64,000 nucleotides of DNA from Pyropia yezoensis (lineage: Eukaryota; Rhodophyta; Bangiophyceae; Bangiales; Bangiaceae). The number at the start of each line of letters is the position of its first letter. Position 1 is the stretch's first letter. The position numbers were made by a program, and so were the translations under genes. Of the stretch, positions 34,701 through 61,344 are shown piece by piece. The notes beneath the pieces were generated by a model. The model saw only the letters and a program-made list of their open reading frames with translations, was not told where the DNA came from and searched no databases. Where the stretch lies: NCBI GenBank assembly GCA_009829735.1, contig CM020620.1, positions 8,758,545-8,822,544 on the forward strand, read 5' to 3'.

Positions 34701-34742
34701 GTCTGGTACCGCTCTTTCGACGCTTCACCCTTTGAGAACGCC

Positions 34743-39886: not shown

Positions 39887-40249
39887 TGTAGCACAATAGG
39901 GATCCGTCGCACGTCCACTCTCAGGGAACACTCACCAAGGGGGATCGGCACCAACGTCACCGGGAGGCCAAGGTTGCTGTCCTTGGAGCGCAAGCCACGG
40001 GACCAAGATGGGAGCCCAAATGGGAGGGGTTTGTTGTTCTACCTTGGCCGGCGGTGGATTCGCCGCCGGCCCCCACGTTATAAACCCTCGGAGACACTAC
40101 TAACTACCCTCCACCCCAAGATGCAAGTCCCTCTGGTCATACGTAACTTATAGATACCGTGACCAGTACGAACTATCAAATTGGAAGTTAAGGGTTAGAA
40201 GTAGCCCCCCTAATATTAGGGTTACAGTACGGCCAACCATATTGCTACA
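39887..40249 (-). repeat. LTR, left copy (363 bp)
   Basis: Bounded by TGTAGCA/TGCTACA. It contains the perfect 12-mer palindrome CCTAATATTAGG (40209-40220), the hairpin GCCGGCGG/CCGCCGGC (40047-40070) and a TTATAAA box on the plus strand (40078-40084). On the minus strand the same site reads TTTATAA, and CTATAAG occurs elsewhere. Confidence 0.95.
40078..40084 (+). promoter_or_regulatory. TATA-like box in the LTR reading toward the antisense ORF
   Basis: TTATAAA on the plus strand, about 757 bp upstream of the antisense ORF's ATG. The core TTATAA is symmetric, so the same site could also serve minus-strand (gag-pol) transcription from the opposite LTR. This is inferred from the motif and its position only. 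Confidence 0.35.
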
Positions 40250-40840
40250 TATCCCCCCCTTAGATTCGGCCCGTCCTCGGGTCGAGTTGCATTCGGGTTA
40301 CCGAATGTAAGTGGGTCGCGTGACCGTTTACCAGTCGGGTGGGGCTTTGCGCCCCGTCGCGACAGACACCCCTTTTCGAGGTTGTCTGAGGGGGGTGCCC
40401 CCCTTTGTGTGGTACACACACGATCCGTTTTCCGGACGGTTAAATTCCCGATGCGGGTTCTGTTCACGACCCCCCTTTCCGAGGGGTGGTGCAAGCGGAT
40501 CCGCCACCAGGTGTCTGGTGGTAGGGGAGCCCCTCTCGTGTTACCGAGTGAATGGGGGCGGCCGCTCCCGCTTTTCGCGGGGGCGGTTTCGGGGTGAACC
40601 CCTCTTGGTTGCCCCGTACGGGGGTGTGGCCCCTTCCCGCCCAGGTGCCTGGGTGGAGCCCGTTCGTAGCCTCGTGGGGCGCGGGTTGACCCGCGCGCCT
40701 GAGGCGCTTCTTGTGGCCGTTTGTGGTCATAAGCGCGGGCGCCCGCGCTTCCCTGGCTCGTCCGCGCGAGCGTTCCTCGTACCGGGTCGAGCCGGCCTCG
40801 GCTTTTCTGCAAGGGGCGCCCCTGCCACCCCGGTTGCACC
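40250..40840. other. Palindrome-dense leader between LTR and antisense ORF
   Basis: About 590 bp with no coding sign, packed with short hairpins such as ggggtgcccc, tgtgtggtacacaca, ccaccaggtgtctggtgg, gaggggagcccctc, ggggtgaacccc, gcgcctgaggcgc and gcgcgggcgcccgcgc. It may be the 5' UTR of the antisense ORF or a structured RNA region near the element's 3' end. Confidence 0.6.
40251..40262 (-). other. Polypurine tract
   Basis: On the minus strand TAAGGGGGGGAT lies one base before the LTR start TGTAGCA. This is the expected position for plus-strand DNA priming in a retrotransposon whose coding strand is minus. Confidence 0.75.
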
Positions 40841-43209
40841 ATGTCGGACCCCCAGGTACCCGGGGGCGAGGACGACCTCCTGCCTGAAGAGGGGGAAGAG
40901 GTGATGGTGGACGACGTTCCCGTCTCCGCCACCGCCGCCGAGTGCTTCCTAGCGAGCTCGTCGGAGGACGAGGACGACCGGGTGACCGTTCGTGTGGCCC
41001 CGGACGGCGCGTCGGGCGGGTTGTCGTCCGTGTGTAGCGGCACGACGGCTCCGTCGGGTGGCGGACAACCGCGTGCAGCGGTGGCTTCTACCGCTTCTCC
41101 TCCGGCGGCCCGGATGGCTTCTGTCGCCGGTACCGGCGTGGCTCTACCTCAAGACAGTGTCGCCGGCGTGGCGGATGGTGGTGGCGGCACCCCGGCCAGC
41201 CCGGCGGGTCAAGACGGCGCGGGTGCCCGCCCGGTTGGTGTGTCCGCTGCGGCGGGTAGCGGGTCTACCCGTGCTGTCCCCGTGGTACCTACGTCGGGTC
41301 CGGGTGGCGGCGATGCTCTGCCCGCGGTGCCGCGGGCGTCTGGTGGTCAAGGTGGGTCTACCCCGATGGCTGTGGACTCCGGTAGTTACTCCGGGCGGGC
41401 GCCCGTCCTTCTTCTTCCTCCTCGGCCGCGTGCGACTCCGGCGCCGGCCCCTCTTCCGGTGGGGCATCCCCCGGCGCCCCCTATTCTTCCTGGTCCTGCC
41501 CGGGTTGCCCCGTTGGGTGGCGGCGTCGCCGTGGCGGCGGGTCAACCCGCCATGTCGATGTTCGACTTGGTGGCTCGGGTTCGAGGCCTGACTGTGCAAG
41601 AGTCAATGGAGTCCGATGGGCGGATGCGGGTGGACTTCCACCTGCCCCATCCCCGTGGAGAGTCCTCCCGGCGCGTCAAGGTGGACCCGAGTTGGGAGCG
41701 GGAGTTGGTGCGGCTGGTCAACCAGCCGAACGCGGTGCGAGTGGAACACCATTGGATCCTGAGTCAGCCGGACGACCGGCATGCGCAGCTCTGGCGTACT
41801 CGGGTGGGACGGGGTGAGGTCTACCTCGACCCCGCCTTCGGGGTATGCGACTTGATTGCTCCCGCGTTGCCGCGGGAGATTGACTACCCGGCTAGTGCTC
41901 GGGGGATTGCGGCGGCGGCGGAGCCGGTTGCGTTTGGGGAGACGGTGGGCAGTACCGGTCGGTATCCCGACTTTGATTACTACCCGGGGGTATCCCCGTA
42001 TCTGTCGTTGACGGCTCCCTACCTGCCTATGGCGGGGTTGAAGTCGGCGTCGAGCTGGCGACGTAACCATGGTGTCATGGCGGATGCGTTTCGCACGGAT
42101 ATAACGTGTGCGTTGCAGACCGGCAACGGTCGTGCGCCGGTACACACTCCCGTGCGCCCGCCGCTATGGCAGGAGGGGTGGGAACCCGCCCCTGCTTTGC
42201 GGTTTGACACCGGCTCCTGTCTCCGATACTTCGGGAGTGTGTTGGCCTCCCGGCCGGTCCACCCGTTGCAGGGTACCTTCACCCTTGAGGTTACCCTCGG
42301 GCAGGCGTCCTCCTTCTTGCTGTCCGTCCGCCGCCAGGGGCGCCTGTTTCATCTTCCGACGGGTGTCCGTCGGCACATCGCGCAGTTGGGCGTGGACCTG
42401 ATAGCTGCCAAGACCGGGTTGGCCCGGGAGTTCGAGGCCCTGCTGGCTGTTCACGATGCCGTGAACTGGGTTGGGGTGTTGGCCCTTCCCCCGTACCGGG
42501 ACCCGCAGGCTGGGGCTACCCCCTTGCCTCGTCACTCGTTGCGTATCCGGCGTACTCAGCCGGGTGAGCCTAGTTGCCATGGGTGGGCGTCCACCGAGGC
42601 CGTTCCTGACCTGGGTATTCCCATGGTTATCCATGACCCTCTTCAGGTCCTTGCCCCGTGGTTCGGTAACCCGATACCGGCGGCGGTTGGCCGTCATCCC
42701 CGAGAGTGGGGCTCTGCGGGTGGGGAGCGTGAGGTGTCCCGTCGTCGGGCCGAGCCCCGCCGGGGTTACGGTGGAGCCCCTTCGGTAGGGTCCTACCGAG
42801 CCTCGTATCAGGTGCCACCGGCTCCGGTGGTAGCCGTGTCGGCTCCTCTGGCTCCTCTGGCTGCGCCAGTGTCCGCTCCCGCCCCTGTCATACAAGACGG
42901 GGGTCCCCGTCTCTGGTATGAGGGCGTTGACGCCCTTGTTGCCCGCGCAATGCGGGAGGGTCTCTCTGTTAGCTGGGGGATATCCCCCCAGGTGCTGCGC
43001 TAGTTGGGTCAGCGCGTTGCTTCGGTGGCGTGCTGGACCGCCTCCAGAAAGCTCTGGAGGACGTGGAGGCTGGCCGCAGCACCCTCGTCCAGCTATGCAC
43101 CGAGGTAACTCGGGTGATTGACCGTCGTGAGATTGCCGACCGGTGGAGCACGGAGGTATACGCGCTTACGCGTGAGTGGCCTCCCTCGGGCAGTGGGTCT
43201 ACCCACTGA
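40841..43209 (+). CDS. Antisense ORF of the retrotransposon (left copy), one frameshift near its end
   Basis: This frame lies opposite to gag-pol, between pol and the 3' LTR. ATG 40841 is in good context (caccATGT). The left copy is open to 43003 (720 codons), then shifted by one missing G in a run near 42976; the right copy is intact there and ends at the stop equivalent to 43207-43209, so the full protein would be about 789 residues. Layout: an acidic N-terminus (GGEDDLLPEEGEEVMVDDVP); a ~170-residue Ala/Gly/Pro/Ser-rich region; then a compact, mixed-composition domain (MFDLVARVRGLTVQESMESD ... LPHPRGESSRRVKVDPSWER ... PDFDYYPGVSPYLSLTAPYL ... VRRHIAQLGVDLIAAK); a Pro/Ala linker; and a helical tail (in the right copy, RLQKALEDVEAGRSTLVQLC). 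I recognise no family. It is not an envelope: no signal peptide or transmembrane segment is seen. A nucleic-acid or coat-like structural role is only a guess. Confidence 0.7.
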
Positions 43210-43460
43210 GGAGCGCTATTGTTAGTGCGGGAGAGGGCCCCGGTGACCCTTATGGTGGCCGGGTAGTAGTGAGTATAAACTCATCCCCTTTGGGGGCATT
43301 GCTTGCCTCTGTTTGCTGCCCTGGGGAGTACCCTTTCTGGCTCAGTGGTGCCTTGCCTCCCGCTTAACTTCTTCCGGTTGGTTCATGCTTGGGGAGGTCA
43401 TCCTCCCTCACTTTGTGTCTTGGCTAGGGGAGGTCATCCTCCCGTGTAAGCCCTCTAGTT

Positions 43461-43608
43461 ACTTCGATATTATCGAAGTTAGCCTTTACCTTTAAGTTAA
43501 CTTATGAAGGTTCGGGTTTTGCTTAGTTACCTAAGCTTGACTCTACTTAGTTACCTAAGCTTGGTTCGACTTAGAAACCTAAGTCTGATTTGACTTAGAA
43601 ACCTAAGT
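43461..43608. terminator. Hairpin array between convergent pol and antisense ORF (left copy)
   Basis: ACTTCGATattATCGAAGT (43461-43479) is followed by four hairpins in a row: GCTTAG-ttac-CTAAGC (43521-43536), CTTAG-ttac-CTAAG (43546-43559), and ACTTAG-aaac-CTAAGT twice (43569-43584, 43593-43608). Two GGAGGtcatCCTCC hairpins precede them. The array lies where transcripts from the two strands would end, so a termination or processing role is plausible but inferred. The same array recurs in the right copy near 54166-54313. Confidence 0.55.
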
Positions 43609-43687
43609 CTGCCGTAACCATGTCACACCCTACTTAGTAGGTATAAGCCTCACCCCCCAACAGCCGAAGTCGGTGTCGGTTGGGTTG

Positions 43688-46600
43688 TTACAGTAGGCGT
43701 CGTCGCCTCATGTAAGGCATGAGGAGTTGGCGGGGTATATTCGCCGCCTGTGTCCAGGTGGGTGAGTCGTATCCGGCCCACATAACCTTCACGTACCAGG
43801 GTCCTGGTAGGTTCGGGTCGGTGTGTCCGACCACGCTCTCTACTTGGTATGGAATCCCATCCGGTCCCACCGGGTCATCTGACCGGTGGGTTGTAAGAGC
43901 TTCATGCAGCAACCCAGCCGGTACCGGCTGAGGCTGTTCCGGCTTCGGAGCAGGTGTGACATCATTCACACTGATGCGTTGGATCTCCGTATCGGAGTGT
44001 AAGATAACAGAGTGGTCATCTCTGTGGAGAATCTGGTACGGTCCCTTGACCGGTTGCATGAGCTTGTTCCCCCGGAACTTCTGGTGTCTGATGTAGACCC
44101 AGTCACCTGTCATCATGGTTGCGTTGCGCACCCGTAACCGGGCGTCGAAGTTCTTCTTATATCGAAGTTGTGTTCTGTCAAGGGCACCCTTGAGCTTAGG
44201 AATCATCCACGATAGCTTGGCCAACCAAGCTAGGTGGATACGTTCGGCCGGTCGGCCTTTCGGTGTATCATACCGAGTGCACCTGCCTGGTGGCAGCGTC
44301 AGGTTACTGACGCCTAGAGGCATGACCCACTCCAGCGGAGCGATGTTTGTGCTCCGATGTGGCCTGGCATTGTATGCCAGGGTGAGTACGGACAGAAGCC
44401 TGTCCCAAGTGTTCGTGTGCTCGGCCACGTAGCACTGTAGCATCTTGACGATGGTGCGGTTGAACCGCTCCACCTGCCCGTTGGTTTGCGGGTGGTAGTC
44501 GGATGCCCGACGTGGTTCGATGCCGAACATGCCCAGGACCTTAGTGCAGAATGCTGACGTAAGGTTTGCTCCGTTGTCGGAGAGGAGTTGCTTCATGACT
44601 CCATATGCACTGATCCAGTGGTCAACCACTGCGTTCATGATGGTGTATGCCGTATCATTCGGGATGGCTGCCGCTCGTGAAAGCTTAGTGAAGCGGTCAG
44701 ACATGACCAGGATGTACCTGTTCCCTTCTTCCGTTACCGGAAGTGGCCCGAGTATGTCGATAGCGACTTGCTCGTTGGGCCCATCGGGTGGGAATAGCTT
44801 CGTGGCAGACGCCTGCCTATGTAGACTCATGCGGTTACGCGCACAGGGGTGGCATCCCCTTACGTGGTCGACCACGTCGACGGCCATTGCTGGCCAGTAG
44901 AAGAACCTTCGCATTGCTGCGAACATACGTGAACCCCCGGGTGTCCGGCTGTGGGGTTCTCGTGTTCTCGTTCCATGACGGCTTGCCGTAAGGACACGGG
45001 AACCACGACTTGATGTCGTCCATCGGCGGGTGCCCGCCGGTATATGAGTCCGTCCTCGTTCTCGGAGAAGATGCCGGCCGTACCGGCCAGGAGGTTAGCG
45101 CGATGACGTCTACAGTCGTCGTCATTGGCTTGTGCCTCGCGGAAGTCCGCGAGGGTTAGTGGGCATGCTCGGTGTGCCATGGTATGGTCAACCATACCTT
45201 GGGTAGCGTTACCCACCATGCAGACCGGTACCACCGGGATGTCCTCGTCCACCGGGCGGGTATCCCCGCTCGGGGTGTCGAGTCGAGACAATGCGTCTCC
45301 GAGATGGTGGGTTGACCCAGCCTTATACACGGTACGGTAGTCGTGCTCGGCCATTTTTAGCCTCCATCGGGCTAGCCTCCCATGGCTATCGGAATCCTTG
45401 TCACCAAGGTTGAGGAGCCATCGTAGGGGTTCGTGGTCGGACCTCACGATGAACCTGGAGCCCTCCAGGTATGGACGGAGCAGTTGCACTGCCCATATAA
45501 CTCCGAGGCATTCACGCTCGGTGGCACTATAGTTACGCTCAGCCGGGTTGAGTGTCCGGCTGAAGTATCCTACCGGACGTAGGTCCGGGATAACGTTATC
45601 GGTAGCGGTCAACGTCTCCCCCTGTAGCAGGGTGCATCCCACTTGGGTGTCGCACGCATCGACATCGATGACGAAGGTACCCCGTCGGTGCGGTAACGCA
45701 AGGACGGGTGGGGATAGTAGGGCTCGCTTCAGCGACTCGAATGCCTCCTCTTCGCTAGGCGAAGGGGGTTGGAGTACCTTGGGCAGGGTACTGCTCGTAA
45801 GAACCGTTAACGGTTTAGCTATCCGAGCGAAGTCCTTGACGAACCGTCGGTATACATTGCACATTCCCAGGAAGCTCTTGAGCTGCGTCTGGGTGTTAGG
45901 GAACCGGGCATCCCGGAGTGCCCGGATATTGGCTTCGAGTACCCCTAGTTTACCAGGGGTTATCTGGTGGCCCAGATACTCGACCGTCTGTTGGAAGAAG
46001 GCGCACTTCTTCAGACGCAGGGTTACCCCGGCGTTCCTCAAGAGGGTGAGTACCTCGTCAACATGTTGCACATGGTCATCCATGTTACGCGAGAAGACGA
46101 TGACGTCATCGAGGTACACTAGGCAGTTACGCCACTTCACCCCCGACAGTATAATGTCGATAGCCCGCTGGAATGTAGCGGGGGCGTTGGACAATCCGAA
46201 GGGCATCCTTAGGAACTCGTACACTCCACTGTGACAGACGAATGCCGTCTTGGGGATATCCTCGTCCGCCACCGGGATCTGCCAGTATCCGGCACTGCAG
46301 TCGATGGTGGTAAACACCGTAGCTTCCCCCAGGGAGTCGATGCATTCATCCATCCTTGGTAAAGGGTAGGAGTCCTTCTTGGTAACCAAGTTCAGGCGTC
46401 GATAATCGATGCAAAACCGAGGGGTTTGATCCATCTTCGGTACGATAACGACTGGGGCACCCCACTCCGACATCGAAGGTCGTATCACCTTCGCTTCACT
46501 CATCCTCTTCACTTCTCCATCAAAGATCTCTCGTTGCATAGGTCCCGCTCGGTGCGGTTGTGACCGGGCGGGGCGTGCGCCTGGTACCAGGTCAATACGA

Positions 46601-47851
46601 TGTTGGGTTGCCCCAATGGTACCCAGGGCTCCGCCTGTCCACATGACGTCATGCTTTCTTAACATCCGTCGTACCCCTTCGGCTACGGAAGGGGGAAGGT
46701 GGTCGAGGTCAGCCTCGGCCAGTGCCTTCAATGCTTCTTGGTCCTTCGGCGGAATATCCGCCGGTAATGATGGTCGACTAGGCTTCCCGTCATCGGGTTG
46801 CTGTCGCTCGGTGGTCTCGGCGACCGCCAGCACCTCAAGTGGGTCCACTTGACCTTCCTTGTCAGGGGTAAGGATATCTCCTTCGTAGAGCTCGGCAATC
46901 GCGAGGATAGTTCCCTTCGGGAGGGTGACTGCCTTGCGGCGATAGTTCGCCATCACTAGGAGGGACGACCCTCCTGATGGGAGGTCTATGAGACCGTTGG
47001 CCATGGTCAACCCATGGCGCTTGTACGTCCGCAAGTTGGACTTGACTCTGCAGATGCCTGCGAGGTCACAGTTAACCGGGAGGACTGTCTCCGACAACGG
47101 CTCAAAGCGAGTTCGCTTGGCCAACCGAAGTGTCTTCGGCTCGACACTTGCGTACACCTCAGCCACGTTAACGTGGCTCCCTTGTAGCGTCAGGTCCCTG
47201 ACGATAGCCGTGTGTCCTCGCTTCGTCCCGTCGGCTTCTTGAAGCTCGACGGTCCTCCGGCCTGGCCGGATTGCATCAACGTGAACGTTGATGAAGGTGC
47301 ACCCCAGTATGCAGGGCACCGATAGGGTCTCACACACCAGGAAGTCGACTTCCGTGGTGAGTTCCCCGATGGTAACCCGCAGCGACATCGCTGCGGTCGT
47401 ACGAATGAGGCGACCATTCGCGTCCTTGATGGTGGGTCCCCGAGTCACTCTGACTCGCGGAAGCCACTTGTCCGGGAGGGTATCCTTCCGGATAAGGTTG
47501 GGTCCAGCCCCTGTATCCAGTACAGGGTAGTACGATCGTGTCGACTGGGGGTCAACCCCAGTGTGGCTGATACCTTGAAGTTCTCCAAGGTAAACAGCAC
47601 GTGGCCTACACCGATATCCGGTGTAGCTCGGGCATCCTGAACAGGGCCCTTGTCTGGTTCCATGTGACGGGGCTTCCCGTCCTCTCCTCCCAACCTTGGT
47701 GGTTGATCATCAATCCCCTGACGCCGTGTCGTCGGGGCCGGAAGGTGTACCCGGGGGTTGATGCGGCGTCGGCTCAACCGCGCTCTCCGTGGGGCTTTCC
47801 CCGCGGTACTCCGGGTGGCTTGCTTGGGTTACCCCAGCGCCCCCCGGTCAT
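43688..47851 (-). pseudogene. pol, left copy, broken by single-base indels
   Basis: Same PR-RT-RH-IN-chromodomain polyprotein as the right copy, but cut into three frames. One C is missing near 44935, within the integrase HHCC region. One C is missing near 47553, upstream of the protease. One G is missing near 47812. Each is in a short homopolymer and each is absent in the right copy. Long intact segments (44860-47448 and 43688-44926) read without stops. The breaks look like consensus errors near the assembly gap rather than decay. Confidence 0.85.
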
Positions 47852-47859
47852 CCTTCCTC

Positions 47860-50273: not shown

Positions 50274-50517
50274 TGTAGCACAATAGGGATCCGTCGCACG
50301 TCCACTATCAGGGAACACTCACCAAGGGGGATCGGCACCAACGTCACCGGGAGGCCAAGGTTGCTGTCCTTGGAGCGCAAGCCACGGGACCAAGATGGGA
50401 GCCCAAATGGGAGGGGTTTGTTGTTCTACCTTGGCCGGCGGTGGATTCGCCGCCGGCCCCCACGTTATAAACCCTCGGAGACACTACTAACTACCCTCCA
50501 CCCCAAGATGCAAGTCC
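50274..50517 (-). repeat. Middle LTR, truncated by the assembly gap
   Basis: Identical over 244 bp to the start (plus-strand sense) of the right LTR, then lost in Ns. It is bordered on the left by the primer-binding region of the left copy, not by the target-site duplication. Confidence 0.95.
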
Positions 50518-51544: not shown

Positions 51545-53914
51545 ATGTCGGACCCCCAGGTACCCGGGGGCGAGGACGACCTCCTGCCTGAAGAGGGGAA
51601 GAGGTGATGGTGGACGAACGTTCCCGTCTCCGCCACCGCCGCCGAGTGCTTCCTAGCGAGCTCGTCGGAGGACGAGGACGACCGGGTGACCGTTCGTGTG
51701 GCCCCGGACGGCGCGTCGGGCGGGTTGTCGTCCGTGTGTAGCGGCACGACGGCTCCGTCGGGTGGCGGACAACCGCGTGCAGCGGTGGCTTCTACCGCTT
51801 CTCCTCCGGCGGCCCGGATGGCTTCTGTCGCCGGTACCGGGCGTGGCTCTACCTCAAGACAGTGTCGCCGGCGTGGCGGATGGTGGTGGCGGCACCCCGG
51901 CCAGCCCGGCGGGTCAAGACGGCGCGGGTGCCCGCCCGGTTGGTGTGTCCGCTGCGGCGGGTAGCGGGTCTACCCGTGCTGTCCCCGTGGTACCTACGTC
52001 GGGTCCGGGTGGCGGCGATGCTCTGCCCGCGGTGCCGCGGGCGTCTGGTGGTCAAGGTGGGTCTACCCCGATGGCTGTGGACTCCGGTAGTTACTCCGGG
52101 CGGGCGCCCGTCCTTCTTCTTCCTCCTCGGCCGCGTGCGACTCCGGCGCCGGCCCCTCTTCCGGTGGGGCATCCCCCGGCGCCCCCTATTCTTCCTGGTC
52201 CTGCCCGGGTTGCCCCGTTGGGTGGCGGCGTCGCCGTGGCGGCGGGTCAACCCGCCATGTCGATGTTCGACTTGGTGGCTCGGGTTCGAGGCCTGACTGT
52301 GCAAGAGTCAATGGAGTCCGATGGGCGGATGCGGGTGGACTTCCACCTGCCCCATCCCCGTGGAGAGTCCTCCCGGCGCGTCAAGGTGGACCCGAGTTGG
52401 GAGCGGGAGTTGGTGCGGCTGGTCAACCAGCCGAACGCGGTGCGAGTGGAACACCATTGGATCCTGAGTCAGCCGGACGACCGGCATGCGCAGCTCTGGC
52501 GTACTCGGGTGGGACGGGGTGAGGTCTACCTCGACCCCGCCTTCGGGGTATGCGACTTGATTGCTCCCGCGTTGCCGCGGGAGATTGACTACCCGGCTAG
52601 TGCTCGGGGGATTGCGGCGGCGGCGGAGCCGGTTGCGTTTGGGGAGACGGTGGGCAGTACCGGTCGGTATCCCGACTTTGATTACTACCCGGGGGTATCC
52701 CCGTATCTGTCGTTGACGGCTCCCTACCTGCCTATGGCGGGGTTGAAGTCGGCGTCGAGCTGGCGACGTAACCATGGTGTCATGGCGGATGCGTTTCGCA
52801 CGGATATAACGTGTGCGTTGCAGACCGGCAACGGTCGTGCGCCGGTACACACTCCCGTGCGCCCGCCGCTATGGCAGGAGGGGTGGGAACCCGCCCCTGC
52901 TTTGCGGTTTGACACCGGCTCCTGTCTCCGATACTTCGGGAGTGTGTTGGCCTCCCGGCCGGTCCACCCGTTGCAGGGTACCTTCACCCTTGAGGTTACC
53001 CTCGGCAGGCGTCCTCCTTCTTGCTGTCCGTCCGCCGCCAGGGGCGCCTGTTTCATCTTCCGACGGGTGTCCGTCGGCACATCGCGCAGTTGGGCGTGGA
53101 CCTGATAGCTGCCAAGACCGGGTTGGCCCGGGAGTTCGAGGCCCTGCTGGCTGTTCACGATGCCGTGAACTGGGTTGGGGTGTTGGCCCTTCCCCCGTAC
53201 CGGGACCCGCAGGCTGGGGCTACCCCCTTGCCTCGTCACTCGTTGCGTATCCGGCGTACTCAGCCGGGTGAGCCTAGTTGCCATGGGTGGGCGTCCACCG
53301 AGGCCGTTCCTGACCTGGGTATTCCCATGGTTATCCATGACCCTCTTCAGGTCCTTGCCCCGTGGTTCGGTAACCCGATACCGGCGGCGGTTGGCCGTCA
53401 TCCCCGAGAGTGGGGCTCTGCGGGTGGGGAGCGTGAGGTGTCCCGTCGTCGGGCCGAGCCCCGCCGGGGTTACGGTGGAGCCCCTTCGGTAGGGTCCTAC
53501 CGAGCCTCGTATCAGGTGCCACCGGCTCCGGTGGTAGCCGTGTCGGCTCCTCTGGCTCCTCTGGCTGCGCCAGTGTCCGCTCCCGCCCCTGTCATACAAG
53601 ACGGGGGTCCCCGTCTCTGGTATGAGGGCGTTGACGCCCTTGTTGCCCGCGCAATGCGGGAGGGTCTCTCTGTTAGCTGGGGGGATATCCCCCCAGGTGC
53701 TGCGCTAGTTGGGTCAGCGCGTTGCTTCGGTGGCGTGCTGGACCGCCTCCAGAAAGCTCTGGAGGACGTGGAGGCTGGCCGCAGCACCCTCGTCCAGCTA
53801 TGCACCGAGGTAACTCGGGTGATTGACCGTCGTGAGATTGCCGACCGGTGGAGCACGGAGGTATACGCGCTTACGCGTGAGTGGCCTCCCTCGGGCAGTG
53901 GGTCTACCCACTGA
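51545..53914 (+). CDS. Antisense ORF, right copy, frame disturbed by four indels
   Basis: Same ORF as 40841-43209, and exactly 2370 nt from ATG to TGA. Relative to the left copy it lacks a G near 51597, has an extra A near 51616, an extra G near 51840 and lacks a G near 53005. These cancel in length but break the frame over 51.6-51.84 kb and again at 53.0 kb. From 53.02 kb to the stop it is intact and supplies the C-terminal ~80 residues missing in the left copy (IPPGAALVGSARCFGG ... ITRE-like helical tail ending SGSGSTH). Confidence 0.7.
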
Positions 53915-54165: not shown

Positions 54166-54313
54166 ACTTCGATATTATCGAAGTTAGCCTTTACCTTTAA
54201 GTTAACTTATGAAGGTTCGGGTTTTGCTTAGTTACCTAAGCTTGACTCTACTTAGTTACCTAAGCTTGGTTCGACTTAGAAACCTAAGTCTGATTTGACT
54301 TAGAAACCTAAGT
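54166..54313. terminator. Hairpin array between convergent pol and antisense ORF (right copy)
   Basis: Same series of hairpins as at 43461-43608: an ACTTCGAT stem, then two CTTAG-ttac-CTAAG and two ACTTAG-aaac-CTAAGT stems. Confidence 0.55.
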
Positions 54314-54392
54314 CTGCCGTAACCATGTCACACCCTACTTAGTAGGTATAAGCCTCACCCCCCAACAGCCGAAGTCGGTGTCGGTTGGGTTG

Positions 54393-57300
54393 TTACAGTA
54401 GGCGTCGTCGCCTCATGTAAGGCATGAGGAGTTGGCGGGGTATATTCGCCGCCTGTGTCCAGGTGGGTGAGTCGTATCCGGCCCACATAACCTTCACGTA
54501 CCAGGGTCCTGGTAGGTTCGGGTCGGTGTGTCCGACCACGCTCTCTACTTGGTATGGAATCCCATCCGGTCCCACCGGGTCATCTGACCGGTGGGTTGTA
54601 AGAGCTTCATGCAGCAACCCAGCCGGTACCGGCTGAGGCTGTTCCGGCTTCGGAGCAGGTGTGACATCATTCACACTGATGCGTTGGATCTCCGTATCGG
54701 AGTGTAAGATAACAGAGTGGTCATCTCTGTGGAGAATCTGGTACGGTCCCTTGACCGGTTGCATGAGCTTGTTCCCCCGGAACTTCTGGTGTCTGATGTA
54801 GACCCAGTCACCTGTCATCATGGTTGCGTTGCGCACCCGTAACCGGGCGTCGAAGTTCTTCTTATATCGAAGTTGTGTTCTGTCAAGGGCACCCTTGAGC
54901 TTAGGAATCATCCACGATAGCTTGGCCAACCAAGCTAGGTGGATACGTTCGGCCGGTCGGCCTTTCGGTGTATCATACCGAGTGCACCTGCCTGGTGGCA
55001 GCGTCAGGTTACTGACGCCTAGAGGCATGACCCACTCCAGCGGAGCGATGTTTGTGCTCCGATGTGGCCTGGCATTGTATGCCAGGGTGAGTACGGACAG
55101 AAGCCTGTCCCAAGTGTTCGTGTGCTCGGCCACGTAGCACTGTAGCATCTTGACGATGGTGCGGTTGAACCGCTCCACCTGCCCGTTGGTTTGCGGGTGG
55201 TAGTCGGATGCCCGACGTGGTTCGATGCCGAACATGCCCAGGACCTTAGTGCAGAATGCTGACGTAAGGTTTGCTCCGTTGTCGGAGAGGAGTTGCTTCA
55301 TGACTCCATATGCACTGATCCAGTGGTCAACCACTGCGTTCATGATGGTGTATGCCGTATCATTCGGGATGGCTGCCGCTCGTGAAAGCTTAGTGAAGCG
55401 GTCAGACATGACCAGGATGTACCTGTTCCCTTCTTCCGTTACCGGAAGTGGCCCGAGTATGTCGATAGCGACTTGCTCGTTGGGCCCATCGGGTGGGAAT
55501 AGCTTCGTGGCAGACGCCTGCCTATGTAGACTCATGCGGTTACGCGCACAGGGGTGGCATCCCCTTACGTGGTCGACCACGTCGACGGCCATTGCTGGCC
55601 AGTAGAAGAACCTTCGCATTGCTGCGAACATACGTGAACCCCCCGGGTGTCCGGCTGTGGGGTTCTCGTGTTCTCGTTCCATGACGGCTTGCCGTAAGGA
55701 CACGGGAACCACGACTTGATGTCGTCCATCGGCGGGTGCCCGCCGGTATATGAGTCCGTCCTCGTTCTCGGAGAAGATGCCGGCCGTACCGGCCAGGAGG
55801 TTAGCGCGATGACGTCTACAGTCGTCGTCATTGGCTTGTGCCTCGCGGAAGTCCGCGAGGGTTAGTGGGCATGCTCGGTGTGCCATGGTATGGTCAACCA
55901 TACCTTGGGTAGCGTTACCCACCATGCAGACCGGTACCACCGGGATGTCCTCGTCCACCGGGCGGGTATCCCCGCTCGGGGTGTCGAGTCGAGACAATGC
56001 GTCTCCGAGATGGTGGGTTGACCCAGCCTTATACACGGTACGGTAGTCGTGCTCGGCCATTTTTAGCCTCCATCGGGCTAGCCTCCCATGGCTATCGGAA
56101 TCCTTGTCACCAAGGTTGAGGAGCCATCGTAGGGGTTCGTGGTCGGACCTCACGATGAACCTGGAGCCCTCCAGGTATGGACGGAGCAGTTGCACTGCCC
56201 ATATAACTCCGAGGCATTCACGCTCGGTGGCACTATAGTTACGCTCAGCCGGGTTGAGTGTCCGGCTGAAGTATCCTACCGGACGTAGGTCCGGGATAAC
56301 GTTATCGGTAGCGGTCAACGTCTCCCCCTGTAGCAGGGTGCATCCCACTTGGGTGTCGCACGCATCGACATCGATGACGAAGGTACCCCGTCGGTGCGGT
56401 AACGCAAGGACGGGTGGGGATAGTAGGGCTCGCTTCAGCGACTCGAATGCCTCCTCTTCGCTAGGCGAAGGGGGTTGGAGTACCTTGGGCAGGGTACTGC
56501 TCGTAAGAACCGTTAACGGTTTAGCTATCCGAGCGAAGTCCTTGACGAACCGTCGGTATACATTGCACATTCCCAGGAAGCTCTTGAGCTGCGTCTGGGT
56601 GTTAGGGAACCGGGCATCCCGGAGTGCCCGGATATTGGCTTCGAGTACCCCTAGTTTACCAGGGGTTATCTGGTGGCCCAGATACTCGACCGTCTGTTGG
56701 AAGAAGGCGCACTTCTTCAGACGCAGGGTTACCCCGGCGTTCCTCAAGAGGGTGAGTACCTCGTCAACATGTTGCACATGGTCATCCATGTTACGCGAGA
56801 AGACGATGACGTCATCGAGGTACACTAGGCAGTTACGCCACTTCACCCCCGACAGTATAATGTCGATAGCCCGCTGGAATGTAGCGGGGGCGTTGGACAA
56901 TCCGAAGGGCATCCTTAGGAACTCGTACACTCCACTGTGACAGACGAATGCCGTCTTGGGGATATCCTCGTCCGCCACCGGGATCTGCCAGTATCCGGCA
57001 CTGCAGTCGATGGTGGTAAACACCGTAGCTTCCCCCAGGGAGTCGATGCATTCATCCATCCTTGGTAAAGGGTAGGAGTCCTTCTTGGTAACCAAGTTCA
57101 GGCGTCGATAATCGATGCAAAACCGAGGGGTTTGATCCATCTTCGGTACGATAACGACTGGGGCACCCCACTCCGACATCGAAGGTCGTATCACCTTCGC
57201 TTCACTCATCCTCTTCACTTCTCCATCAAAGATCTCTCGTTGCATAGGTCCCGCTCGGTGCGGTTGTGACCGGGCGGGGCGTGCGCCTGGTACCAGGTCA

Positions 57301-58559
57301 ATACGATGTTGGGTTGCCCCAATGGTACCCAGGGCTCCGCCTGTCCACATGACGTCATGCTTTCTTAACATCCGTCGTACCCCTTCGGCTACGGAAGGGG
57401 GAAGGTGGTCGAGGTCAGCCTCGGCCAGTGCCTTCAATGCTTCTTGGTCCTTCGGCGGAATATCCGCCGGTAATGATGGTCGACTAGGCTTCCCGTCATC
57501 GGGTTGCTGTCGCTCGGTGGTCTCGGCGACCGCCAGCACCTCAAGTGGGTCCACTTGACCTTCCTTGTCAGGGGTAAGGATATCTCCTTCGTAGAGCTCG
57601 GCAATCGCGAGGATAGTTCCCTTCGGGAGGGTGACTGCCTTGCGGCGATAGTTCGCCATCACTAGGAGGGACGACCCTCCTGATGGGAGGTCTATGAGAC
57701 CGTTGGCCATGGTCAACCCATGGCGCTTGTACGTCCGCAAGTTGGACTTGACTCTGCAGATGCCTGCGAGGTCACAGTTAACCGGGAGGACTGTCTCCGA
57801 CAACGGCTCAAAGCGAGTTCGCTTGGCCAACCGAAGTGTCTTCGGCTCGACACTTGCGTACACCTCAGCCACGTTAACGTGGCTCCCTTGTAGCGTCAGG
57901 TCCCTGACGATAGCCGTGTGTCCTCGCTTCGTCCCGTCGGCTTCTTGAAGCTCGACGGTCCTCCGGCCTGGCCGGATTGCATCAACGTGAACGTTGATGA
58001 AGGTGCACCCCAGTATGCAGGGCACCGATAGGGTCTCACACACCAGGAAGTCGACTTCCGTGGTGAGTTCCCCGATGGTAACCCGCAGCGACATCGCTGC
58101 GGTCGTACGAATGAGGCGACCATTCGCGTCCTTGATGGTGGGTCCCCGAGTCACTCTGACTCGCGGAAGCCACTTGTCCGGGAGGGTATCCTTCCGGATA
58201 AGGTTGGGTCCAGCCCCTGTATCCAGTACAGGGTAGTACGATCGTGTCGACTGGGGGTCAACCCCCAGTGTGGCTGATACCTTGAAGTTCTCCAAGGTAA
58301 ACAGCACGTGGCCTACACCGATATCCGGTGTAGCTCGGGCATCCTGAACAGGGCCCTTGTCTGGTTCCATGTGACGGGGCTTCCCGTCCTCTCCTCCCAA
58401 CCTTGGTGGTTGATCATCAATCCCCTGACGCCGTGTCGTCGGGGCCGGAAGGTGTACCCGGGGGTTGATGCGGCGTCGGCTCAACCGCGCTCTCCGTGGG
58501 GCTTTCCCCGCGGTACTCCGGGGTGGCTTGCTTGGGTTACCCCAGCGCCCCCCGGTCAT
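54393..58559 (-). CDS. pol: pol polyprotein (PR-RT-RNase H-integrase-chromodomain), intact right copy
   Basis: 1388 residues with no stop. Domains in order: retropepsin with VLDTGAGPNL (active Asp113); reverse transcriptase with FCIDYRRLN, LRMPFGLSNAPATFQR and YLDD at 580-583; RNase H from about 725 (VIDVDACDTQVG ... YSATERECLGVIWAVQLLR ... HHLGDALSRL); and integrase with an HHCC zinc finger (HENPTAGHPG ... CHPCARN) and a D-D-E triad at about 1033, 1093 and 1129 (AIDILG, LSDNGAN, NGQVERF), giving the standard D,D35E spacing. The last ~53 residues (YQVESVVGHTD ... WYVKVMWAGYDSPTWTQAAN ... MPYMRRR) form a chromodomain, so this is a chromovirus of the Ty3/gypsy group. The order PR-RT-RH-IN is diagnostic. 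The ATG at 58559 lies 8 nt after the gag stop. The pol frame is also open upstream through the slippery site, so expression by -1 frameshifting is likelier than a separate start. Confidence 0.95.
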   Translation of the reverse strand: MTGGRWGNPSKPPRSTAGKAPRRARLSRRRINPRVHLPAPTTRRQGIDDQPPRLGGEDGKPRHMEPDKGPVQDARATPDIGVGHVLFTLENFKVSATLGVDPQSTRSYYPVLDTGAGPNLIRKDTLPDKWLPRVRVTRGPTIKDANGRLIRTTAAMSLRVTIGELTTEVDFLVCETLSVPCILGCTFINVHVDAIRPGRRTVELQEADGTKRGHTAIVRDLTLQGSHVNVAEVYASVEPKTLRLAKRTRFEPLSETVLPVNCDLAGICRVKSNLRTYKRHGLTMANGLIDLPSGGSSLLVMANYRRKAVTLPKGTILAIAELYEGDILTPDKEGQVDPLEVLAVAETTERQQPDDGKPSRPSLPADIPPKDQEALKALAEADLDHLPPSVAEGVRRMLRKHDVMWTGGALGTIGATQHRIDLVPGARPARSQPHRAGPMQREIFDGEVKRMSEAKVIRPSMSEWGAPVVIVPKMDQTPRFCIDYRRLNLVTKKDSYPLPRMDECIDSLGEATVFTTIDCSAGYWQIPVADEDIPKTAFVCHSGVYEFLRMPFGLSNAPATFQRAIDIILSGVKWRNCLVYLDDVIVFSRNMDDHVQHVDEVLTLLRNAGVTLRLKKCAFFQQTVEYLGHQITPGKLGVLEANIRALRDARFPNTQTQLKSFLGMCNVYRRFVKDFARIAKPLTVLTSSTLPKVLQPPSPSEEEAFESLKRALLSPPVLALPHRRGTFVIDVDACDTQVGCTLLQGETLTATDNVIPDLRPVGYFSRTLNPAERNYSATERECLGVIWAVQLLRPYLEGSRFIVRSDHEPLRWLLNLGDKDSDSHGRLARWRLKMAEHDYRTVYKAGSTHHLGDALSRLDTPSGDTRPVDEDIPVVPVCMVGNATQGMVDHTMAHRACPLTLADFREAQANDDDCRRHRANLLAGTAGIFSENEDGLIYRRAPADGRHQVVVPVSLRQAVMEREHENPTAGHPGGSRMFAAMRRFFYWPAMAVDVVDHVRGCHPCARNRMSLHRQASATKLFPPDGPNEQVAIDILGPLPVTEEGNRYILVMSDRFTKLSRAAAIPNDTAYTIMNAVVDHWISAYGVMKQLLSDNGANLTSAFCTKVLGMFGIEPRRASDYHPQTNGQVERFNRTIVKMLQCYVAEHTNTWDRLLSVLTLAYNARPHRSTNIAPLEWVMPLGVSNLTLPPGRCTRYDTPKGRPAERIHLAWLAKLSWMIPKLKGALDRTQLRYKKNFDARLRVRNATMMTGDWVYIRHQKFRGNKLMQPVKGPYQILHRDDHSVILHSDTEIQRISVNDVTPAPKPEQPQPVPAGLLHEALTTHRSDDPVGPDGIPYQVESVVGHTDPNLPGPWYVKVMWAGYDSPTWTQAANIPRQLLMPYMRRRRLL

Positions 58560-58567
58560 CCTTCCTC

Positions 58568-60751
58568 TTACTCGTTTCCCGCCCTTGGTAGGGTGCTGTC
58601 CGCCGGGACATCCGGCTGAGGCGGTGCCTCCTCGACGGCCAGTACTCCACCTGGAGCTGGCTGCCTACCCGGTGCGGGTCCGGGTGCTCTGGCGGGATAC
58701 CCCCCGGTGGATGCCTTGCGGTGCGCCGCTGCCCGCGGAGACTCCTCGGGGATGAGTGAGCAGGAAGACACCCAGTGCTGGGGATCCCCACACAACATAC
58801 ATCCGGACGTGCCGGTCCCTCCTTGAGTTCGCATCGGGGTAGCCCCGTAGGTGCGGTTGCCTCCCTCGGGCGCCCGAGTTCCTGCTCCCTGGTAGGCCTT
58901 GGGTCCTTGGGTCAACCGGAACATGGACTTCCCCAACCGGTTGGGTCGGCCCGCAATCTGCGGAGGTGCCTCCGTACGTACTGCCCATGTAGGCAGGGGC
59001 TGGTGGGGGTTACCCGTAACCGGGGCATACCCCGTCGTCCGCACATACGGGACGCGCCGTCCCGCTCCTTCGTTGACCTGGAACTGGGTTCCAGCCGGGG
59101 CGATGTACGCTACCGTACCATGCTCATCAATCACCGGCGTCGCCGGTAGCAACAGGTGGCCCTGTTGGTCGACTAGAGGGTCATCCTCACCAATAGGGGG
59201 ATGTTCGGTCGCCACCAGTACTGGTGCGGCCTTACGTTCCACCTTCTCTGGCCTCGGTACCGGGGTAAGACTGGGCTTGCCTCCCTCACCCTTGGGCTTC
59301 GGGGCCAAGGCACACTCCGGGTGTAGAACCCGGTAGGCGTCCCCTAGGGACTTGCACATATGCATCAGTCGACTGAAGTTGGTCCGTGCCGTATTGGCTC
59401 CCCGAGCGGATATCCGCACGTAGTTGGGTACTCCTGCGAACAGGATGGCCCGTAGCTCCCCTTCTCCGAGGAGCTTCCCCAGCTCGTAGTCGAGCTCTTG
59501 GATCCGGCGTCCAAACATCTCCTCATCCTCCCAGCTCTGGGCGGTGGCAGTGCGCAGAGCCCAGTAGTGGTCCTCGCACTTGTCCTCACTGAGGTAACTG
59601 CTCAGCAGCTCCTTGAGGATCCCACGGTAATCCATGGGGGTGGCCGCGACCCTCATTCCCGGCATCGGGGATGCCTGGCGAAGAATGCCTCGCACCCGTT
59701 CATCAACAAAGAAAGGGAGGATCTCCAGGGCCAGCCCCTCGTTGACGAGCGCCTTGTCTGTGGCTGCCTTGAAGCTAGTCAAGAAGCCGATGACTGCCAA
59801 CGGACGTCCGCTGGGGCCCCCGAACATTGGGACCCCCTTCATAAGGGTCTGCATAGAGCGGATCGCTCGGTGCGACGTATTACGCATCGATTCCGATACG
59901 GTGGTAGATTGGTCTTCCAAGCGATGACGATCGGGAGTCAGTACCGACCTGAAGACTTCGTTGGCGATCTCCGTGTCGGCGTCCTGGATATCCAGTCGCT
60001 TAGCCAGTTGATGAGCAAACTCATCGGACTCCATCCGCTTCAGTAGGCTCGCAGTTACCTGCGCGGTCATAGCTTCCACCACTGAAGATGGTACTTCAGG
60101 CGTCGGCACCTCGGGAACCCGAGTTGCCTGGCCTCCTTCGTCGTGGGGGTACAGTGAGAGGGTACCCCCTCCCCCAATAACCGACTCTCCACCGGCGTAA
60201 GTATCCGCCGGGTCGTGTCCGTGGAGTCCGCTTCGGGTGCTCCGAGCGTATCGCTCCGTGTGGCTACGTTCCAACTCAGCCGACGAGTCGGATCCATACC
60301 CCATTGTGTCCGGGGGTTGTCCAGGAGTAGCAACACCGGGGTTGACCCTGGTGGACTCCGAAAGTAGTCCGGCCGGTTCGAACCGTACTGGTGTGGGAGG
60401 AACACGTCGGGGTCCCGTCGTGTGGCGTGTTGACATCAACACTGCCATTGCGTCCTCCGTCCGATCTTGACGGGCGTCGAGCCCGGAAAACCGGGCCTCG
60501 ATGCGGGCCAATGATGCCATCAGGGAATCTCCTGGTGAAGGAGGCGGCGGAGTGGGGTCGGTCGATGACAGTTGAGGCGGACCCCCGCCTCCTGCCGTCC
60601 GAGCCGTGCCAAACGTCGATCCGGCACCGGAAAGCATTGGCGTCTCAATGTTGTCGATCGGGTTCCCGATCCCAGTTCCCGTAGTCACCTCCGGGGTCGG
60701 CGTCGACGCCGATCCGTCATCTTGAACGTTCCCCGTCTCTTGGGTAGACAT
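58568..60751 (-). CDS. gag: gag-like nucleocapsid polyprotein with CCHC zinc knuckle, intact right copy
   Basis: 727 residues from ATG 60751 (MSTQETGN). The N-terminal third is Pro/Thr/Ser-rich and probably disordered. The central part (EVPSSVVEAMTAQVTASLLK, then a helical capsid-like region PMDYRGILKELLSSYLSEDK ... FGRRIQELDYELGKLLGEGE) resembles the retrotransposon gag capsid fold. Near residue 650 a zinc knuckle CMLCGDPQHWVSSC (CX2CX4HX4C) would bind the RNA genome. The C-terminus is Pro-rich and ends RAGNE. The last sense codons contain the slippery heptamer for gag-pol fusion. The ~225 nt between the LTR and this ATG hold the primer-binding site and packaging leader. Confidence 0.9.
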   Translation of the reverse strand: MSTQETGNVQDDGSASTPTPEVTTGTGIGNPIDNIETPMLSGAGSTFGTARTAGGGGPPQLSSTDPTPPPPSPGDSLMASLARIEARFSGLDARQDRTEDAMAVLMSTRHTTGPRRVPPTPVRFEPAGLLSESTRVNPGVATPGQPPDTMGYGSDSSAELERSHTERYARSTRSGLHGHDPADTYAGGESVIGGGGTLSLYPHDEGGQATRVPEVPTPEVPSSVVEAMTAQVTASLLKRMESDEFAHQLAKRLDIQDADTEIANEVFRSVLTPDRHRLEDQSTTVSESMRNTSHRAIRSMQTLMKGVPMFGGPSGRPLAVIGFLTSFKAATDKALVNEGLALEILPFFVDERVRGILRQASPMPGMRVAATPMDYRGILKELLSSYLSEDKCEDHYWALRTATAQSWEDEEMFGRRIQELDYELGKLLGEGELRAILFAGVPNYVRISARGANTARTNFSRLMHMCKSLGDAYRVLHPECALAPKPKGEGGKPSLTPVPRPEKVERKAAPVLVATEHPPIGEDDPLVDQQGHLLLPATPVIDEHGTVAYIAPAGTQFQVNEGAGRRVPYVRTTGYAPVTGNPHQPLPTWAVRTEAPPQIAGRPNRLGKSMFRLTQGPKAYQGAGTRAPEGGNRTYGATPMRTQGGTGTSGCMLCGDPQHWVSSCSLIPEESPRAAAHRKASTGGYPARAPGPAPGRQPAPGGVLAVEEAPPQPDVPADSTLPRAGNE
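58574..58580 (-). promoter_or_regulatory. -1 ribosomal frameshift slippery heptamer GGGAAAC at the gag/pol junction
   Basis: Read on the minus strand in the gag frame as G GGA AAC, followed by GAG TAA. A -1 slip gives GGG AAA CGA GTA AGA and runs directly into the pol frame, exactly as needed. About 18 nt downstream CCGGGG can pair with CCCCGG around an inner GGG/CCC stem. The heptamer is conserved in the left copy (47866-47872). Confidence 0.7.
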
Positions 60752-60976
60752 CGTCACAGTCAGTCGACCGACGTAACAATCACCACGAATAAGAGAGCGA
60801 GGGGGTAGATTGGGGAGAGTAACAGTAGATCACCGTCACAGGTAAAAACTCAACACAATCGATCAGGTCGCAACACCACGAGTACAAGAAAAGGACCGGA
60901 TCCCTATCCGTGTGCCAGGGCCGAAGACGGCGTCACCACAAGGGTGACGGAAACCCGTCCCCTGCTGCTCCACCAA
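60752..60976 (-). other. 5' leader with candidate primer-binding site
   Basis: One base inside the 5' LTR end the minus strand reads TGGTGGAGCAGCAGGGGA (60975-60958). It starts with the TGG that pairs with a tRNA 3' CCA. I could not identify the tRNA. The leader then runs to the gag ATG. Confidence 0.55.
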
Positions 60977-61339
60977 TGTAGCACAATAGGGATCCGTCGC
61001 ACGTCCACTATCAGGGAACACTCACCAAGGGGGATCGGCACCAACGTCACCGGGAGGCCAAGGTTGCTGTCCTTGGAGCGCAAGCCACGGGACCAAGATG
61101 GGAGCCCAAATGGGAGGGGTTTGTTGTTCTACCTTGGCCGGCGGTGGATTCGCCGCCGGCCCCCACGTTATAAACCCTCGGAGACACTACTAACTACCCT
61201 CCACCCCAAGATGCAAGTCCCTCTGGTCATACGTAACTTATAGATACCGTGACCAGTACGAACTATCAAATTGGAAGTTAAGGGTTAGAAGTAGCCCCCC
61301 TAATATTAGGGTTACAGTACGGCCAACCATATTGCTACA
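60977..61339 (-). repeat. LTR, right copy (363 bp; 5' LTR of the element)
   Basis: Same length and ends as the left LTR; one substitution noticed (equivalent of 39920). It includes the TTATAA core at 61168-61174 that could place the gag-pol promoter. Confidence 0.95.
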
Positions 61340-61344
61340 CAGTC
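61340..61344. repeat. Target-site duplication, right copy (CAGTC)
   Basis: Matches 39882-39886 exactly. Confidence 0.85.

Follow-up and report, generated by a model that had tools for sequence, protein, structure and literature searches.

Structure that runs along entire viral RNA genomes (GORS) has been described for years, its working being still presented as open (PMC3950689). It is marked by a whole-genome folding excess that includes coding sequence, by MFED well above 3% and by a patchy distribution among relatives, and it has been linked with persistence and innate sensing. Dispersed packaging signals, as described for ssRNA viruses such as MS2 (PMC6281560), are many stem-loops with a common loop motif. 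In the case of LTR retrotransposons, Ty1 RNA is described as carrying at its 5' end two hairpins with 7-nt motifs, whose complementary loops lead to dimerisation and packaging (PMC5454406). SHAPE maps of the Ty1 and Ty3 genomic RNAs depict structure over the whole element (PMC9503155, PMC11381356), and a term search of the text of PMC11381356 found neither shuffled controls nor covariation mentioned. The likeness of these maps to the present locus is one of description. To our knowledge, no loop rule is known from them.

Here we describe a pair of retrotransposons within a 64,000-nucleotide stretch (the window) of contig CM020620.1 of the red alga Pyropia yezoensis. As in GORS, they show a folding excess throughout, coding sequence included; unlike GORS, they are red-algal LTR retrotransposons with perfect hairpins, one preferred loop type per family and nearly equal folding of both strands. 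They share with MS2-type packaging signals (PMC6281560) the many stem-loops with a common loop motif, but here the motif shows reverse-complement symmetry, Gag is a putative binder, and the polarity of such signals on the packaged strand has no counterpart, as no significant strand asymmetry was found (P = 0.39). In contrast to the kissing loops of Ty1 (PMC5454406), some hundred small loops are spread throughout. Our searches of an open-access collection of papers brought up no retroelement family defined by such hairpins, as an earlier description made from the letters alone (the sequence-only reading) had supposed.

The locus offers a direct test of what such structure is for, since its perfect hairpins can be counted, and an internal control is available in the many near-identical copies, the young subfamilies and the mutations that arose neutrally after insertion. 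It brings structure of viral strength into an LTR retrotransposon. The loop rule changes from one family to another within one genome, which also houses families without hairpin excess. About a hundred short perfect hairpins through genes and spacers, apparently maintained by selection and with a loop form particular to the family, suggest a structural code that may act on the elements' own copies.

Two Ty3/gypsy elements in tandem

The span 39887..61339, previously taken for one retrotransposon, contains two near-identical elements in tandem, with the middle LTR common to both and a gap of 500 N at 50518-51017 (Table 1). The gag and pol genes lie on the minus strand, opposite to the antisense ORF (plus strand), which corrects the earlier assignment. 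The element is a Ty3/gypsy LTR retrotransposon, with PR-RT-RNaseH-INT order, TG..CA LTRs, a putative PBS, a PPT and a TSD within 4-6 bp. The domains of the element 2 pol follow in the order RVT_1 (471-631), RNase H (726-836), H2C2 (951-1008) and rve (1025-1122), preceded by a protease at 111-189 that scores under the cut-off (24 vs 28.2 bits). Its gag ORF has no Pfam match and shows, by eye, one CCHC zinc knuckle, CMLCGDPQHWVSSC. LTRs, PBS, PPT, gag, domain order and a 5-bp TSD are shared with the Ty3/gypsy chromoviruses; unlike these, the element has a long antisense ORF downstream of pol and is saturated with hairpins. The chromodomain PF00385, which many relatives carry, gave no Pfam call in the pol of element 2 at E 0.001. 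Relatives of the antisense ORF are present in Pyropia vietnamensis. None of 4227 Rfam families matches 39800-61400 at gathering score, and two pattern scans of viral contigs confirmed no relative. The units of the tandem 24-bp repeats hold a hairpin with a 4-nt loop, e.g. CTTAG TTAC CTAAG.

Table 1. Positions of the features of the tandem pair and of example hairpins in the window
Feature	Position	Strand	Remarks
5' LTR of element 2	60977..61339	-	363 bp, TGTAGC...GCTACA; repeat detection, ends read
LTR common to both elements	50274..50517	-	visible part; remainder inside N gap
3' LTR of element 1	39887..40249	-	363 bp
Target-site duplication	39882..39886; 61340-61344		GACTG, 5 bp, two copies
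Presumed primer binding site	60967..60976	-	TTGGTGGAGC; adjoins 5' LTR; by position alone, no tRNA matched
Polypurine tract	40250..40263	-	AAGGGGGGGA; precedes 3' LTR; by eye
gag ORF of element 2	58568..60757	-	729 aa
pol ORF of element 2	54393..58559	-	1388 aa; protease, RT, RNase H, integrase
pol of element 1	43688..47448	-	two overlapping frames, 862 + 412 aa
Antisense ORF of element 1	40841..43003	+	720 aa
Antisense ORF counterpart in element 2	51696-53105; 53021-53914		broken
Tandem 24-bp repeats	43522..43611; 54227-54316	+ (first copy)	two copies
Example hairpin	41859..41878		arm 8, loop 4
Example hairpin	42356..42373		arm 7, loop 4
Example hairpin	42449..42466		arm 7, loop 4
Example hairpin in pol	54918..54937		arm 8, loop 4
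Example hairpin in pol	55001..55018		arm 7, loop 4

Hairpin density and folding

The 13 hairpins listed in the sequence-only reading are all perfect inverted repeats at their coordinates, with arms of 6-8 bp and loops of 2-9 nt. Counting arms of at least 6 and loops of 2-10 in 2-kb segments, with dinucleotide shuffles as the null, the 11 segments of 40001-62000 hold 249 hairpins vs 51.7 expected (131 vs 14.2 for arms of at least 7), although these segments are not independent, because the two near-identical elements lie inside them. A single element holds 129 vs 24.7 (67 vs 6.45 for arms of at least 7). In the 20 segments of 1-40000, mostly host, 193 were counted vs 148.6 expected, 1.3x overall (64 vs 42.7 for arms of at least 7), those from 14001, 20001, 32001 and 34001 reaching 2.0-2.6x. 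Against synonymous-codon shuffles of the ORFs (200 each), pol has 58 hairpins vs 10.5 (sd 3.3, z = 14.5), gag 25 vs 6.9 and the antisense ORF 23 vs 7.4. Arms of at least 8 are likewise in excess in pol (13 vs 0.7) and the antisense ORF (5 vs 0.6), and show no excess in gag (1 vs 0.55).

Both shuffle controls, which the sequence-only reading had proposed, thus give densities far below the element's. Its figure of about ten 7-bp hairpins in the antisense ORF compares with 12 counted for arms of at least 7 (1.4 expected), and its statement that coding and non-coding DNA are affected alike holds: the spacer 43004-43680 has 9 hairpins vs 0.8, a density of 13.3 per kb as against 13.9 in pol. The spacing is wider than the 30-60 bp it gave (mean 84 bp, median 65, for arms of at least 6). 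Its dismissal of a codon effect stands as to cause, but the stems in ORFs sit within synonymous freedom: 12 of 94 tetraloop hairpins with arms of at least 5 oppose wobble to wobble position, where about 29% are expected (P = 0.0002). The share of sequence taken up by perfect hairpins with arms of at least 5 and loops of 3-8 nt is 32% in the element, compared with 9.6% in its shuffles and 14% in the host part.

MFED of the focal element is 12.6% on the sense and 11.6% on the antisense strand (computed from 35 fragments 300 nt long, with 15 dinucleotide shuffles per fragment), above the 3% along the genome that marks GORS, although the control method differs from that of the literature. By strand it is 16.1/15.7% in the related P0002 family, and 2.0% in host DNA. 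Elsewhere it runs from -0.1% (L082) through 0.7% (L009), 5.1% (L122) and 8.0% (L012) to 11.7% (L123), a lack of conservation among relatives that is also typical of GORS. For strongly structured RNA viruses the values given are 16.0 for CaCV, 13.6 for PLRV and 12.0 for HPgV (PMC3950689), and the 11.6-16.1% found here is in that range, with shuffling methods that differ. Folding z-scores average -1.6 on the plus and -1.8 on the minus strand of the element (host -0.45 and -0.25), singling out neither strand, and the predicted pairing of the hairpins is 0.71 in sense and 0.64 in antisense, vs 0.27 for 98 chance hairpins of the host part. Wobble pairs in the stems, counted as a test of strand, give uneven results. 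G.T exceeds A.C by 18:5 in single-mismatch stems of the focal element on the plus strand and by 22:11 in 7-bp tetraloop windows, but the chance expectation is shifted because the sense strand is A-rich. Among polymorphic stem pairs the ratio is 9:2 in variants common to at least three copies vs 14:13 in rarer ones (P = 0.14), and the counts in the P0002 family disagree, 8:3 (L079) and 4:0 (L072) in one and 6:10 in another.

Loop geometry in related families

The specificity of the loops and its change by family is the most informative part of the analysis. Hairpins of the focal element are most strongly in excess where the loop has 4 nt, with 5'G-C3' as the closing pair and Y-R at the centre (motif G-DYRH-C): with arms of at least 5, there are 114 loops of 4 nt vs about 15 expected, 92 of the 114 being closed by G-C and 8 by C-G. 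Loops of 3 and 5 nt are also raised about threefold (44 each vs 13-15), so the rule is a preference. The outer loop positions 1-4 are complementary in 45 cases vs 33.3 expected if independent, and the inner positions 2-3 in 34 vs 34.9; complementarity fades at the loop, and these are therefore hairpins and not duplex palindromes.

The relative P0002 (L079) prefers 5-nt loops (45 vs 10, C-AASTT-G) and contig L123 3-nt loops (27 vs 4, RNY). The loop motifs are reverse-complement symmetric, without significant strand polarity in any of the three families (permutation P 0.39, 0.11, 0.19). When the focal element is compared with the P0002 family, not one hairpin centre of the first falls within 1.6 nt of one in the second, where chance would give 1.4, which leaves a common ancestry of their hairpins unsupported. 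That the loops are specific in length, closing pair and motif, and that this specificity shifts between families, had gone unremarked in the sequence-only reading. Among 30 other RT loci of the genome, hairpins stand at 0.8-1.4x in 13 and at 1.7-2.8x in 17, so that the trait is graded. L082 and L083 are at chance (12 vs 9.8 and 11 vs 11.1), and L122, a related contig 41% identical, has 25 vs 16.8, with the excess confined to its last 2 kb.

Stem conservation and competing explanations

Between two subfamilies, stems of pol and the antisense ORF carry 8 differences vs 27.6 expected. In pol 5 of 84 fixed differences fall in stems vs 15.4 (6 vs 17.2 with the other reference), and in the antisense ORF 3 of 109 vs 12.2 (3 vs 13.3). 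Tetraloop hairpins are kept across subfamilies in 46 of 48 cases in pol and 23 of 24 in the antisense ORF, and that at 41859..41878 persists in the subfamily-B copy L064 save for one outer base. In the P0002 family, pentaloop stems have 7 differences vs 15.7 (6 vs 15.2), and 30 of 37 hairpins are kept over 5 copies. Private mutations, on the other hand, hit stems nearly as expected (35 vs 40.8). A truncated copy (L042) was left out of the variation counts and an intermediate between subfamilies (L051) out of the fixed-difference count; L059, all N, was removed from a random sample, leaving 19 of 20. As subfamily differences avoid stems and private mutations hardly do, the stems are apparently under purifying selection and not a mutational by-product, although proof by covariation is absent, because none of the 8-9 stem differences between subfamilies is a double Watson-Crick (compensatory) change.

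The counts establish an excess over the nulls, a preferred family-specific loop, stems depleted of fixed differences, and another geometry and other positions in a related family. The reading that we favour, with a probability of roughly 0.45, is that short Watson-Crick hairpins have been selected along the whole element as one programme; they would form wherever its nucleic acid is single-stranded (in genomic RNA and probably in antisense RNA or cDNA as well), and their loops would be read by a family-specific partner. This partner is most likely of the element's own making, the candidates being Gag, with its zinc knuckle, or other hairpins through loop-loop (kissing) contacts. Some hundred weak sites might then fold, condense or package the nucleic acid of their own family and not another's, with hairpin density and loop type counting and the location of any single hairpin not. 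Symmetric, polarity-free motifs would, however, not be needed by a protein that reads the packaged sense RNA alone, and kissing is weakened because the inner loop positions lack excess self-complementarity, although the motif profile is near its own reverse complement. The raised odd loops, the missing covariation, the graded trait and L122, nearly without excess, also count against it. An extension that we hold only tentatively is that red-algal Ty3/gypsy families may each have their own loop dialect (3-nt RNY, 4-nt G-DYRH-C, 5-nt C-AASTT-G), repeated at scores of sites through all of their genes: an element-wide, family-identifying structural code, symmetric for sense and antisense and overlaid on the protein code, with loop-loop pairing or a co-evolving protein as putative readers.

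The main rival, possible though we consider it rather unlikely, is shielding: the hairpins would make the transcripts of both strands (or RNA and cDNA) fold back on themselves, and these would then neither anneal into long dsRNA nor be sensed. The near-equal folding excess of both strands in the focal and P0002 families, the symmetric motifs and, as in GORS (PMC3950689), the patchiness among relatives fit it. An antisense mRNA may be indicated by the long antisense ORF, whose relatives occur in a second Pyropia species. The host genome has a single Piwi-domain match and two frames with RNase III matches, one of 643 aa with two such domains and the other with one; yet shielding does not predict that each family should favour a loop length, a closing pair or a motif of its own. 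Of the two causes offered in the sequence-only reading, selection for structure is supported by the stem differences, but its wording as a compact genomic RNA is too narrow, as both strands fold nearly equally and the motifs are symmetric. The other, template switching by RT that copies arm onto arm and perfects imperfect hairpins, is disfavoured and in our view improbable. It would act in the active lineage only and on both cDNA strands, which would fit symmetric motifs and RT-specific loop lengths, and it would fit the absent stem depletion among private mutations. However, it should leave double Watson-Crick changes, and none is among the 8-9 stem differences counted, about 28-30 stem hits having been expected, even if coding constraint would remove part of the double changes; the depletion of subfamily differences and the equal densities of pol and spacer also speak against it.

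Less probable still, and largely refuted, is a feature of the DNA itself, with palindromes bound as duplex, extruded as cruciforms or favoured as integration targets. The symmetry of the motifs would suit it, as would the weak preference of LTR elements for palindromic targets described in PMC6911290. Eleven target sites (10 pairs of LTR pieces plus that of the window) were picked by eye because both flanks were available and matched in 5 bases; counted outward from the centre, positions 2-4 are complementary in 6-7 of these 11. Complementarity in the element fades at the 4-nt loop, however, arms of such length are short for cruciforms, and only 1 of the 11 empty sites has a perfect arm of 6 near its centre (3-5 in the others), so that loops as integration target sites are unsupported. 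Of the 38 LTR pieces examined, L092 and L111 had no recognisable end, the solitary LTR L118, flanked on either side, lacks a 5-base flank repeat, and the remaining ones had one flank each or no pairing. An artefact of composition or codon use is refuted here: high GC raises chance palindromes and the host segments stand at 1.3x overall, but the hairpins exceed both the dinucleotide and the synonymous-codon null, and 13 of 30 RT loci in the same genome stand at about 1x.

Hairpin excess in a tandem pair of elements

In the 11 windows between 40001 and 62000, hairpins with arms of at least 6 and loops of 2–10 nt are 4.8 times as dense as dinucleotide shuffles predict, and those with arms of at least 7 are 9 times as dense, as against 1.3 and 1.5 times in the 20 windows preceding position 40001. 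The tandem elements being near-identical, the count for a single element is 129 hairpins, with 24.7 expected. All 13 example hairpins listed in the sequence-only reading were found, and the excess that it claimed holds against both dinucleotide shuffles and protein-preserving codon shuffles (z = 14.5 in pol, 7.0 in gag and 6.2 in the antisense ORF). Coding and non-coding DNA are alike in this respect, as it had proposed (13.9 per kb in pol and 13.3 in the spacer). Its description of the region as one whole retrotransposon is right as to the hairpin-rich span, but the span consists of two elements, with a period of 10.7 kb and three LTRs.

A single target-site duplication, GACTG, lies outside the pair; the two elements share a middle LTR, and this LTR runs into a 500-N gap. 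The antisense ORF, in which no Pfam domain above cut-off was found, has nine database relatives, six of them from Pyropia vietnamensis, and may represent an antisense gene that these elements have conserved. It is open in element 1, where gag and pol are broken, and element 2 shows the opposite state. The 24-bp repeat looks as if hairpins had been multiplied in the spacer. Outside the elements, the hairpin-rich stretch from 32000 to 36000 gave no BLAST match to ten transposable-element loci, and is possibly an old or unknown element. The genome searched comprises 107.5 Mb in 11 contigs, the three large ones being of 43.59, 34.33 and 29.39 Mb.

Location of the features described in the text
Feature	Position	Strand	Remarks
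Two Ty3/gypsy elements	window 39887-61339		tandem
gag and pol		minus	both tandem elements
Antisense ORF, 720 aa	window 40841-43003	+	downstream of pol
Tandem 24-bp repeat	window 43522-43611 and 54227-54316		each unit with a 4-nt-loop hairpin
Hairpin-rich stretch	window 32000-36000		23 hairpins, about 9 expected; some long-armed (35375, arm at least 10)
Row of three LTRs, same genome	C1:13162958-13184182		loci L106 and L107 with identical 3' flank
One Piwi-domain match; a 643-aa reading frame containing two RNase III domains	G000:C3:5004889-5005788 and G000:C1:5448574-5449464
Hairpin-rich 3' part of a related element (Moorena MAG contig)	L122 6301-7938		many near-identical hairpins, core gcgcc-TNC-ggcgc

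Loop rule and probable constraint on the stems

When loop lengths are tallied separately (arms of at least 5), the focal element peaks at 4 nt, with 114 hairpins against about 15; the counts for 2 nt (79) and 6 nt (70) are mostly recounts of these tetraloop hairpins, and odd loops are also raised about threefold (44, 44, 40 and 37 for 3, 5, 7 and 9 nt, against 13–15). The tetraloops prefer D-Y-R-H and are closed by 5'G-C3' in 92 of 114 cases and by C-G in 8. Their inner positions lack excess pairing (34 against 34.9 under independence) and the outer ones are somewhat enriched (45 against 33.3), which identifies the units as true loop-bearing hairpins rather than duplex palindromes. In P0002, a related family with 5-nt loops, positions 1–5 pair in 13 cases (13.4 expected) and positions 2–4 in 28 (23.6). 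The focal tetraloop stems, folded with 70 nt of flank on each side, have a predicted mean pair probability of 0.71 in the sense and 0.64 in the antisense strand; 98 tetraloop hairpins that occur by chance in the host part average 0.27.

Most of the twenty added pol copies (L039-L058) belong to one or the other of two subfamilies, which differ by about 4%. Among 84 fixed differences between them, counted without L042 and L051, 5 lie in stems against 15.4 expected, and none of 300 matched random placements gave so few; for tetraloop stems the figures are 2 and 8.8 (P = 0.007). Taking the other subfamily as reference gives 6 against 17.2 and 2 against 8.9. Private differences (n = 230), which presumably postdate insertion, come close to expectation, with 35 in stems (40.8 expected) and 21 in tetraloop stems (22.9). 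In the antisense ORF and adjacent spacer of L064, a single subfamily-B copy, 3 of 109 differing sites are in stems, where their share of sites predicts 12.2; pooled with pol, this makes 8 against 27.6 (Poisson P ~1e-5). Tetraloop hairpins are retained in 46 of 48 and 23 of 24 cases, and 8 of 48 tetraloops have changed, mostly preserving the motif. In the ORFs, the hairpins occupy codon registers that leave the work to wobble positions. P0002 points in the same direction, with 7 stem differences against 15.7 (P = 0.012, fixed and private pooled), 5 against 7.8 in the even-loop control, and 30 of 37 hairpins retained. No strict covariation was seen among the stem differences, because they are too few. 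Maintenance of the hairpin programme by selection is well supported, to judge from sequence, with a probability of roughly 0.85.

Hairpins in other families

A protein search with the RT-integrase region retrieved relatives at about 50% identity, and the family comparison covers two families of this genome and one short contig. P0002, with at least 35 copies at 99% in the same genome, is 52% identical to the focal family over the RT-integrase region and 42% over aligned pol; its pol holds 25 hairpins (8.6 in codon shuffles), and its preferred loop is of 5 nt (45 against 10), in the form C-AASTT-G. The short contig, L123, eukaryotic-looking and from a Robiginitomaculum MAG, is 37% identical over part of pol and prefers 3-nt loops (27 against 4). 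Of 19 usable random 2-kb genome samples, 5 match the P0002 family and 2 the focal one; pooled, the 19 contain 263 hairpins against 136. No excess was found in loci L082 and L083 (12 against 9.8 and 11 against 11.1) or in the pol of L122. Thirty further RT loci (L009-L038) range from 0.8 to 1.4 times expectation in 13 cases and from 1.7 to 2.8 times in 17, with few long arms. The folding-energy excess over shuffles (MFED) is 16.1% in P0002, 12.6% in the focal family, 11.7% in L123, 8.0% in L012, 5.1% in L122, 2.0% in the host, 0.7% in L009 and -0.1% in L082. L012 and similar loci (GC 0.52) are distant, with pol about 32% identical, and have perfect hairpins at only about twice expectation; they appear to carry structure of a different style. 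As no hairpin positions common to focal and P0002 pol were found, and families without excess exist, each family seems to have acquired or rebuilt the trait independently.

What the hairpins may serve

Loop length, closing pair and motif change by family, which points to a specific partner; the hairpins would be recognised by Gag or by the loops themselves. Loop motifs show no significant strand asymmetry in any of three families, and their reverse-complement symmetry suggests a rule that works in either polarity, or else a need for loops to match one another. Part of this symmetry is trivial, stemming from longer palindromes; yet the Y-R centre persists in those 48 focal loops that have no inner pair (Y in 35, R in 30). 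Close behind recognition by a partner comes the shielding of sense and antisense transcripts, whereby hairpins would keep both self-folded and out of long dsRNA. Wobble-pair counts in the stems indicated no clear strand. Shielding is kept in contention by an MFED nearly equal between strands, by the existence of the antisense ORF and by RNAi-type genes in the host, where the Piwi match and the double-RNase III frame are likely to represent the RNAi core.
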